From Isoptericola halalbus (GTDB lineage Bacteria; Actinomycetota; Actinomycetes; Actinomycetales; Cellulomonadaceae): a stretch of DNA of 64,000 nucleotides. Under the pieces are notes generated by a model. It made no database searches. It had not been told where the DNA came from and was given only the letters and a program-made list of their open reading frames with translations. Positions 28,851-30,797 of the stretch are shown here, one piece after another. A program made the translations under genes and the position numbers. The stretch lies in the NCBI GenBank assembly GCA_009663185.1, contig VJZX01000008.1, positions 62,001 through 126,000 on the forward strand, written 5' to 3'. The number at the start of each line of letters is the position of its first letter. The first letter of the stretch is position 1.

Positions 28851-28927
28851 GCCCCGGTAGCCCAACCGGCAGAGGCAATCGGCTCAAACCCGATCCAGTG
28901 TGGGTTCGAATCCCACCCGGGGCACCA
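28851..28927 (+). tRNA. tRNA with anticodon CAA (nominal Leu, but short variable arm)
   Basis: Full cloverleaf including encoded CCA. The acceptor stem GCCCCGG pairs perfectly with CCGGGGC. The D stem has 3 bp (GCC/GGC) around a GG-containing loop. The anticodon stem ATCGG/CCGAT encloses CTCAAAC, so positions 34-36 read CAA. The variable loop is only 5 nt (CCAGT). The T arm GTGGG/CCCAC has TTCGAAT. The discriminator is A. CAA decodes UUG (Leu), yet bacterial tRNA-Leu has a long variable arm, so amino-acid identity is uncertain. Its 3' end is duplicated at 30785. Confidence 0.85.
28915..28927 (+). repeat. Direct repeat copy 1 (att-like, tRNA 3' end)
   Basis: ACCCGGGGCACCA forms the 3' end of the tRNA and recurs exactly at 30785-30797. 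With four more upstream bases the match is 16 of 17 (TCC[C/T] before it). Confidence 0.85.
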
Positions 28928-28930
28928 TGT

Positions 28931-29037
28931 GATGTCTCAGGACATCGGCGACGGCCGGACCCACGTCTTGCGGGTTCGGCTGTTGCCATCTGTGCGGATC
29001 GGCGACTCGGCGCCGGTAGTCCCGTCCTGAGGACGGG
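28931..29037 (+). other. Three successive stem-loops after the tRNA-like gene
   Basis: GATGTC-TCAG-GACATC (28931-28946), a 9-bp stem beginning GCCGGACCC and ending GGGTTCGGC (about 28953-28979), and CCCGTCC-TGA-GGACGGG (29021-29037). They fill the 142-bp space before the island gene. The first may end tRNA transcription; the others may be recombination-site or leader structures. Function is not known. Confidence 0.6.
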
Positions 29038-29069
29038 TCGTTCGACCCTGCCTCGTCACGGGCACCCGA

Positions 29070-30734
29070 GTGACACTGGTCTCAGGCACCTTGGACGTGG
29101 CCCTCATGAAGACCTTCCTTCAGACCTCGCCGTCCGGCTGGAGCGAACCGCCGCCCGCGGAACACACGATCCGGACCTACTTCGACGCGTTCGGACCTGC
29201 TCCCGCCTGGGACCTGCTGGTGCAGTGGCCCGCCGACGTCTACTGTCTCTGCAGCCTGGTGCTCGACCAGACTGAGGCGTACCGCTTCGCCGTCGCCCCG
29301 CCCTTCCGCCGGCGCTGGCCCCCGACACCGGACTGGAACTCGCGTGTCGAGACGTCGGCACGGGACTGGGCGACCGGCGCCCTGCCATGGTTCGTACGGC
29401 AGCACTGGAGCGTGCTCCGCGAGGCACGCGACACGACGCTCAGCGCCATCCGCGCCGGTGAGGCATGGGAGGTCTGCGAAGCGCTGCTCACGCTGCACGC
29501 CCTCGCGGACGAGGCGTACGCGGGCCTGGATGCTCCGACCCCTCCCGCAGGAGCCGCTGACAGCATGTGGCGGGCGTGGTCGCTCCTCGACCGGGCGGGC
29601 ACACTGTCGAACGTCTCCTCCCGTCGGGTGCGCGTCCTGCCGAAGAGCAGCTTCACCCCCCGCGGGATCACCATCCGCTCGATGTCGCGTTACCTCGCGC
29701 TGTGCTACGAGTCGGTGGACGTGCACTGGGGCCGGATCGACTCCGAGGTTCGCGCGCTCGCCGCCGCACCGGACGAACGGCCCTACAACGTGCTCCTCGT
29801 CCCGTGGCCACGGAGCGTCCGGGCCAGCGACTTTCGTGCGGTCCAGGCACCCCTGGAGAACATGGATACGACGGTGTTCGGGTTCTTCGAGTTCACTCCC
29901 GAGGAATCGACGAACGGTGACCCTCTCGGATCGCTGCTCGAAGCCTCCGTCGCACAGGGCGACCGTGTCGACGCCGTCGTCCTCCCTGAGGCCGCGATCT
30001 TGCCTGGTCAGATCCCGGTGCTCGAGGAGGTCCTGGAACGCTTCGACGTCCGGTTCCTCGTGGCTGGCGTCCGGCAACCCGGCATCGATGGCGGGTTCGG
30101 GCGCAACTACGTGCACTTCGGCGCCCGGGGCGACCGGGGCTGGCAACGGTTCGAGCAGGACAAGCACCACCGTTGGTGCCTGGACGGCAACCAGGTCCGC
30201 CAGTACCACCTGGCCCGGTCACTCGATCCCGCCAAGCTCTGGTGGGAGGCGATCGACCTTCGGCCGCGGGCTGTGAACGTCATCGACGTCGGAGGCGGCG
30301 CCACGGCCGCGCCACTGGTGTGTGAGGACCTCGCCCGGATGGATGAGGTAGCAGACCTGCTGCGCCGGATCGGACCCAGCATCGTCGTGGCGGTCCTCCT
30401 CGACGGTCCCCAGCTCTCCAGCCGGTGGCCCTGCCGCTACGCCGCCGTCCTCGCCGACGAACCCGGCTCGGCAGTGCTCACGCTCACGGCGTACGGAATG
30501 GTGCGGAGGTCCCGGCCGGAGGGCCTGCCCCTGAGCCGTGTCATCGCACTCTGGACCGACAAGGTCGGCGGCATCCAGGAGATCTCACTGGCACGGGGGG
30601 CGCAGGGCGTGCTCCTCGAGACGACGGTCCGGCTGAGGACGACCTGGACAGCCGATGGCCGGCGTCATGAGAGGGTGCCGGAGATCATCCTCGTCGGCTC
30701 TCGGCAGATCCGGCCATCCGGACATGCGCCGTAG
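29070..30734 (+). CDS. Divergent nitrilase-superfamily (carbon-nitrogen hydrolase-like) protein in tRNA-site island
   Basis: I do not recognise a named family for this 554-residue protein. Residues 1 to about 235 form a mostly helical domain of unknown function. Residues about 238-520 resemble a nitrilase fold. The three catalytic residues can be assigned as E307 in VVLPEAAI, K365 in EQDKHHRWC and C418 in PLVCEDLAR, followed by WPCRYAAVLADEPGSAVLTLT, which matches the post-Cys helix-strand region. There is no signal peptide or clear membrane helix. The start is uncertain: GTG 29070 or ATG 29106, both with weak ribosome sites. Context (single cargo gene, lower GC, att-like repeats) suggests horizontal acquisition; a defence or stress role is inference. 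Confidence 0.75.
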   Translation: MTLVSGTLDVALMKTFLQTSPSGWSEPPPAEHTIRTYFDAFGPAPAWDLLVQWPADVYCLCSLVLDQTEAYRFAVAPPFRRRWPPTPDWNSRVETSARDWATGALPWFVRQHWSVLREARDTTLSAIRAGEAWEVCEALLTLHALADEAYAGLDAPTPPAGAADSMWRAWSLLDRAGTLSNVSSRRVRVLPKSSFTPRGITIRSMSRYLALCYESVDVHWGRIDSEVRALAAAPDERPYNVLLVPWPRSVRASDFRAVQAPLENMDTTVFGFFEFTPEESTNGDPLGSLLEASVAQGDRVDAVVLPEAAILPGQIPVLEEVLERFDVRFLVAGVRQPGIDGGFGRNYVHFGARGDRGWQRFEQDKHHRWCLDGNQVRQYHLARSLDPAKLWWEAIDLRPRAVNVIDVGGGATAAPLVCEDLARMDEVADLLRRIGPSIVVAVLLDGPQLSSRWPCRYAAVLADEPGSAVLTLTAYGMVRRSRPEGLPLSRVIALWTDKVGGIQEISLARGAQGVLLETTVRLRTTWTADGRRHERVPEIILVGSRQIRPSGHAP

Positions 30735-30784
30735 TGTCGCGCCACCACAGCGAACGCCACGCCGTGCTCCGGCCACGTCGTCCT

Positions 30785-30797
30785 ACCCGGGGCACCA
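30785..30797 (+). repeat. Direct repeat copy 2 (displaced tRNA 3' end)
   Basis: Exact second copy of ACCCGGGGCACCA, 51 bp after the island gene stop and 6 bp before the pyk terminator hairpin. No tRNA body precedes it, as expected for a displaced attachment fragment. Confidence 0.8.

Follow-up and report, generated by a model that had tools for sequence, protein, structure and literature searches.

When a direct repeat is found at a tRNA gene, it is commonly interpreted as a pair of integrase att sites. Mobile insertion cassettes (MICs) consist of IS ends around passenger genes and have no transposase. Insertion sequences of the IS481 family end in TGT/ACA, as stated in an excerpt of PMC11406308, and the element described here has such ends too. 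A Pseudomonas IS481 is linked to REP sequences in an excerpt of PMC11708052. We found no IS481 element targeting tRNA 3' ends in the literature; the search mostly fell short of full texts, and this is weak evidence of absence. For the defence system DRT1, an excerpt of PMC13275509 reports that the nitrilase cysteine mutant C1116A loses immunity and that infection is abortive; its authors remark that there are few earlier examples of nitrilases in defence against phages, and describe the substrate as unknown.

The window analysed here (the whole stretch of 64,000 nucleotides from Isoptericola halalbus) holds an insert that compares with each of these. The insert shares a terminus with IS481-family copies encoding an NF033577 transposase, but the copy in the window, which carries a passenger gene, lacks both transposase and right terminus, and is not a complete element by definition. 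The present lineage also differs from the IS481 family in its location at tRNA 3' ends, in its duplications of 15-16 bp and in having short copies of 151-449 bp. As in MICs, a passenger gene replaces the transposase and mobilisation in trans is probable; unlike MICs, the insert has its left end alone recognisable, and the target is a tRNA 3' end. With DRT type 1 and UG5 (class 3 DRT), the window protein has a related nitrilase domain in common. However, neither protein nor insert contains a reverse transcriptase domain, which places them outside the DRT definition, and the N-terminal helical domain (~200 residues) is a different one. Our best overall explanation, to which we give about even chances, is an IS481-type non-autonomous cassette at tRNA-Leu carrying a nitrilase-superfamily effector gene.

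Insertion at the 3' end of a tRNA-Leu gene

The insertion target is an intact tRNA-Leu(CAA) gene with an encoded CCA (28851..28927, forward strand; ARAGORN; Rfam RF00005, 57.6 bits), located between pdtaR and pyk. The insert (1,870 bp, 28928-30797) starts directly after this CCA. We observed that the last 15 bp of the tRNA gene (CCACCCGGGGCACCA, 28913..28927, forward strand) were repeated at the far side of the insert (CTACCCGGGGCACCA, 30783..30797, forward strand), with 14 of the 15 bp identical and 13 exact. The proximal copy corresponds to a target-site duplication, as complete relatives of the element have duplications of 15-16 bp, and after the distal copy comes the empty site's conserved hairpin on the pyk side. 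In its 17-bp form the repeat agrees at 16 of 17 positions (TCCCACCCGGGGCACCA at 28911-28927 and TCCTACCCGGGGCACCA at 30781-30797). The repeat was rare in the genome: the 13-mer ACCCGGGGCACCA occurred three times in the 4.10-Mb genome, two of these being at the insert (a reversed control pattern gave two copies).

An empty site was seen between pyk and pdtaR in 9 of the 17 other genomes of the genus (G001, G005, G008, G010, G012, G013, G015, G016 and G017), where the pyk match ended 65-113 nt from the tRNA. The junctions were read in three of these. In G001 and G015 the tRNA was followed by CGACGAAGGCCCGG, the same sequence that lies 3' of the distal repeat in the window, and the G017 junction resembled them without being identical. 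Among the remaining eight genomes, G002 had an IS481 copy, and G003 and G009 had a distal copy of the tRNA end about 10 and 43 kb away. In G004, G006 (contig end) and G014, pyk was not found within the short locus, and in G007 (74% complete) the tRNA query had no match. In G011 (L097), the same tRNA was inverted between pdtaR and pyk, with pyk nearby.

As same-genus relatives carry empty sites, the insert is, with virtual certainty, a true insertion at the tRNA 3' end. Since 15 bp of the tRNA end are duplicated, the tRNA-Leu stays whole. The sequence-only reading had proposed an insertion at this place from the 13-bp exact repeat (16 of 17 with flank), and ARAGORN, Rfam, the repeat and the empty sites all bear this out. 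A direct repeat of a tRNA 3' end together with empty sites is what an integrase-borne island displays, and it is equally expected of a transposon.

The usual tRNA-Leu has a long variable arm. This tRNA has a tRNA-Leu(CAA) anticodon but a short variable region, and it is conserved, the query matching in 55 of the 58 genomes searched. We call it an insertion hotspot, because four relatives (G003, G009, G024 and G033) have distal copies of its 3' end, 10-43 kb away (L129, L130-L131, L132 and L133-L134).

The sole gene of the insert (29070..30734, forward strand) is supported by homologues, model and GC3. It comprises 554 codons from the GTG at 29070; translation may in fact begin with the ATG at 29106. 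Its GC at the three codon positions (0.71/0.52/0.86) is typical of a coding frame. The lower GC noted in the sequence-only reading held clearly for third positions, where GC3 was 0.856 against 0.932-0.969 in six neighbours (a foreign codon usage), and much less for overall GC, which was only slightly low (0.694 against 0.704-0.735). The same reading was right that the insert has one gene and no integrase: we found a single gene-sized frame with homologues, and no integrase gene within the insert.

IS481-family elements at tRNA 3' ends

The left end of the insert (TGTGATGTCTCAGGACATCGG..., 28928..29024, forward strand) matched G002 at 88% over 52 bp and G014 at 77% over positions 1-97, and it could be aligned to L148. 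The copies matched in G002 and G017 both have NF033577 transposases. This segment holds a terminator-like hairpin and the probable degenerate end of a transposase reading frame. The hairpin (28947..28987, forward strand) is strong, with an RNA fold of -33.7 kcal/mol (z -6.9), and none of 200 shuffles was as stable. The 142-bp left segment was matched in 17 of 58 genomes. A target-site duplication of the length found in the element's relatives is also present at the expected place (14 of 15 bp). That the insert begins with an IS481-type left terminus is highly probable.

We could not recognise a right terminus. The 48 bp that precede the distal repeat matched the right ends of complete copies no better than shuffles did (p 0.355, 0.44 and 0.645), and a search for the right-hand end in relatives gave weak GC-rich matches alone, apart from the insert's own sequence. 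The insert, with its one gene and at most the degenerate end of a transposase frame, was also found to have no transposase of its own, and it is therefore a derived non-autonomous cassette and not an IS.

Intact copies of the element encode an IS481-family transposase of 396 residues (NF033577 matches at 2e-71 and 3.8e-69). At 10 of the first 11 loci read, the left end lay directly after the T-arm and 3' end of a tRNA, and at the other (L141) it followed a copy of a tRNA-Ser 3' end, with no more of the tRNA. In a larger set of 22 loci, overlapping with these 11, at 17 of the left ends inspected ARAGORN called a tRNA ending no more than 3 nt ahead of the element (0-3 nt). As for the other five, L157 shows a tRNA at its second left end, a copied tRNA-Ser 3' end precedes L151 and L152, L162 follows a tRNA-Pro-like sequence that ARAGORN did not call, and L164 has no tRNA. 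Complete copies measured 151-1,363 bp. In six of them (L148, L149, L154, L159, L160 and the own-genome copy on G000:C27) the tRNA 3' end was duplicated exactly over 15-16 bp, and in L167 the duplication was 13 of 15 bp. The copy in G002 (L128) has a tRNA-Leu end at its left and a tRNA-Ser end at its right; being flanked by the ends of different tRNAs, it has no duplication. L148, L154, L159, L160 and L167 are short copies (151-449 bp) without a transposase, some of them in tandem at one tRNA.

An order-wide search found the transposase in 25 of 248 genomes. We examined 30 transposase loci from the 40 matches listed, and at 19 of these a co-oriented tRNA lay no more than 250 nt from the C-terminus of the transposase, and the element started directly after this tRNA. 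Among the other 11, L174 and L175 had a tRNA 3' part, L177 and L186 had a partial match that a tRNA precedes by about 300 nt, and seven loci had no tRNA, at least two of which were at contig ends. In the own genome, the exact left terminus occurred three times, always after tRNA 3'-end sequence (a reversed control pattern gave none): at the insert, at a tRNA-Pro(GGG) on the same contig, and in a 1.36-kb copy beside a tRNA-Pro 3' part, this last copy being flanked by a perfect 15-bp duplication. A fourth match, with two mismatches and a different arrangement, lay beside a tRNA-Pro-like fragment. This element lineage targets tRNA 3' ends, and its members carry 15-16 bp duplications. A source of transposase for the insert may exist in the own genome, since a related IS481 copy is present there, the transposase match of which was limited to residues 104-391.

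How the insert arrived can be read in more than one way. In a single transposition, a non-autonomous IS481-family cassette, holding one passenger gene where the transposase would be, would have inserted at the tRNA-Leu 3' end and duplicated its last 15 bp, driven by a transposase acting in trans, and its right terminus would have decayed or been lost afterwards. We consider it probable that the gene was brought in this way, and go no further than that because the right terminus is missing; the distal repeat, at 14 of 15, is also imperfect. The missing terminus favours a history of two events, where an integrase-borne island with the nitrilase gene shrank at this tRNA to one gene, leaving attL and attR, and an IS481 element later transposed into this very tRNA 3' end, of which decay has left no more than the left terminus of the element. 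The distal copies of this tRNA's 3' end in the four hotspot relatives are also as seen for integrated elements. However, the repeats in the three of these four that were read closely (G003, G009 and G024) begin at the T-arm (GGTTCGAATCCC...) and measure about 21-25 nt by eye, whereas the repeat in the window (15-17 bp) has the length of an IS481 duplication, and we noticed no remains of an integrase within the 1.87-kb insert. We therefore regard two events as unlikely. From the sequence-only reading, mobilisation in trans is retained as an inferred step; an island of integrase type gives way, on the element terminus and the length of the duplication, to what is most likely an IS481-family cassette targeting the tRNA 3' end.

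The nitrilase-superfamily protein and its relatives

The passenger gene encodes an all-helical N-terminal domain followed by a predicted nitrilase-superfamily domain. The AlphaFold2 model of the window protein was confident (pLDDT 88.6, pTM 0.89). Foldseek gave 79 PDB matches at E <= 0.001, and all 50 of the matches listed were to the nitrilase superfamily, with modest TM-scores in the best rows (0.30 by query, 0.48-0.60 by target). The model thus makes an alpha-beta-beta-alpha nitrilase fold very likely. The N-terminal segment of 209 residues (29151..29777, forward strand) also folded confidently as all-helical (pLDDT 89.2), and a fold search of the PDB with it gave no match at E <= 0.001 and none below E 3.1.

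The catalytic residues named in the sequence-only reading were correctly numbered when checked by codon: the glutamate E307 (29988..29990), the lysine K365 in a KHHRW motif (30162..30164) and the nucleophile C418 in a CEDLAR motif (30321..30323), all on the forward strand. They were invariant in 11 of 11 and in 45 of 45 aligned sequences. The larger alignment (A3) comprises the window protein and 44 of 84 loci, and a further alignment (A7) holds 35 of its 45 sequences. By predicted fold and motif, the protein is a member of the nitrilase superfamily, as the earlier reading had it. It has the predicted fold and the triad in common with members of PF00795 such as the Bacillus cereus formamidase (5g3p) and mouse Nit2 (2w1v), but unlike them it has no Pfam match. 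Scans of the window protein gave no Pfam, PADLOC or NCBIfam match of note (a single NCBIfam match at 0.15 is chance), the best hit of a PDB sequence search with the protein and profile A1 was at E 0.55, and a viral structure library gave no match at E <= 0.001. One of 26 longer homologues reached CN_hydrolase, at 0.072.

A link to the DRT nitrilases had been suggested earlier, and profile comparisons make it plausible. With hhalign, the nitrilase domain (29757..30713, forward strand) matched six DRT/UG5-associated nitrilases at a probability of 96.6 (E 5.4e-10, score 75.8), with E, K and C aligned to the DRT triad, and eight ordinary CN-hydrolases at 91.9 (E 6.9e-7, score 53.1). By sequence profile, the domain resembles DRT nitrilases more than ordinary ones, the comparison sets being small (six against eight). 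The DRT-nitrilase models of PADLOC did not match the window protein; they weakly matched 4 of 11 homologues at E <= 0.1. When homologues were run singly, 3 of 10 matched PADLOC DRT-nitrilase (best 1.1e-5) and seven had no PADLOC match.

The gene had no match in the genomes of 57 relatives, and phylum-wide it was held by 3 of 396 genomes (own genome included), one of the three being a partial match. A tblastn search gave 12 plasmid records with 28-35% identity to the window protein, and a profile scan found 181 relatives from many phyla, of which 80 were kept. A profile scan of viral contigs gave four relatives. No record of the phage collection matched by tblastn, and an early contig scan with one protein as query confirmed no homologue. 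At one locus (L035, 9863-16132), two nitrilase homologues stand in succession.

The nearest homologue (L199; L243 9183-10976, G595) has 541 aa and 51% identity. It lies 82 nt from the 3' end of a tRNA-Leu, in convergent orientation; a duplication or an IS terminus was sought at this site and not found. We observed no tRNA within 1.5 kb at any of 94 homologue loci. The tRNA context is therefore not typical of the family, and was rejected as a family property, the tRNA-Leu of L199 notwithstanding.

For alignment A2, 14 of 16 homologues were taken as near kin, and most of them had an extra C-terminal stretch. This stretch (ELTxLTxWAEA..., about 110-130 residues) occurs in the actinobacterial proteins of L012-L020, L022, L023, L026, L032 and L055 and is absent from the window protein; it gave no Pfam match in those homologues that were scanned. 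Truncation of the gene was considered and rejected. The window protein is probably full length, as L199 ends at about the same place.

Neighbours of the homologues and a possible role in defence

We examined the neighbours of the nitrilase homologues at 20 of the 94 loci, picked for contigs long enough that control genes could be drawn from the same contig at a distance of 40 kb or more. The six nearest genes of each locus (120 in all, from a crude gene caller) were compared with 120 control genes. At E <= 1e-20, PADLOC gave 46 models (25 listed) among the near genes and 12 among the control genes; these are counts of models, not genes, and several models can match one protein. The control matches were to helicase, subtilase, SspH, mad2/mad8 and PDC-S01 models, and some of them (PDC-S01, mad2 and mad8) may be real defence genes. 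When chosen neighbours were run singly, 8 of 10 matched PADLOC. At least 5 of the 20 loci had, within their six nearest genes, core defence genes by PADLOC: a type I restriction system (L066), TRIP13 (L073), a CBASS cyclase, a 2TM effector and IetA (L077), a UG10 DRT with an effector nuclease model (L079), and viperin (L086). Several other near loci resembled housekeeping surroundings. At L077 (7593-11980), the nitrilase homologue is immediately preceded by the CBASS cyclase and 2TM effector and immediately followed by a conserved small gene.

A fixed partner gene was also considered and rejected. Clustering of the neighbours gave small downstream genes at four loci (L003, L075, L077 and L089) or at three (L007, L047 and L054), and in each of these sets two loci have identical nitrilase proteins.

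The favoured reading is that the protein is a stand-alone effector of abortive infection, and by analogy we consider this defence role reasonably likely; the DRT-like nitrilase profile and the defence genes beside homologues lend it indirect support. The roles of effector and sensor are proposed because the DRT1 nitrilase requires its cysteine for immunity and infection is abortive in that system. In an uninfected cell, the helical domain would keep the nitrilase inactive as a sensor or brake. A phage signal would release or oligomerise the nitrilase, the Cys-Glu-Lys site would then attack some essential metabolite by hydrolysing one of its C-N bonds, and growth would stop before phage release, as proposed for the DRT1 nitrilase but with no reverse transcriptase taking part.

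The same protein might instead be an ordinary metabolic amidase or nitrilase, horizontally transferred and with no role in defence. Enzymes of metabolism, formamidase and Nit2 among them, head the fold matches, and the homologues of L047, L067 and L091, where the neighbours were read, stand among housekeeping genes. However, the distribution is sparse, an extra helical domain is present, the clustering gave no conserved metabolic partner, the profile is closer to that of the DRT nitrilases, and defence genes occur among the neighbours; a purely metabolic enzyme thus seems rather doubtful. It could also be supposed that the gene has no function and is carried along as a silent or decaying passenger, given a single copy, an imperfect distal repeat and a lost right terminus. 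This we hold to be quite improbable, as all 554 codons are open with the triad intact, GC3 (0.856) and codon-position GC are coding-like, the predicted fold is confident, and L199 is of similar length (541 aa).

Returning to the defence reading, it may be extended, tentatively and at less than even chances, beyond this locus. There may be a widespread, unnamed family of stand-alone nitrilase effectors (a helical sensor with a DRT-like nitrilase and no reverse transcriptase) which acts as a single-gene abortive-infection system, and which in these actinobacteria has been spread in transposase-less cassettes by transposons of the IS481 family, which home on the 3' ends of tRNA genes and leave the tRNA intact. 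If this is true, effector and sensor would be separable in a nitrilase that needs no reverse transcriptase, and its substrate would be easier to find. Independently of this, a lineage of DDE transposons whose targets are tRNA 3' ends, regenerated by its duplication, offers another way to explain direct repeats beside tRNA genes, and a route for single genes to travel.
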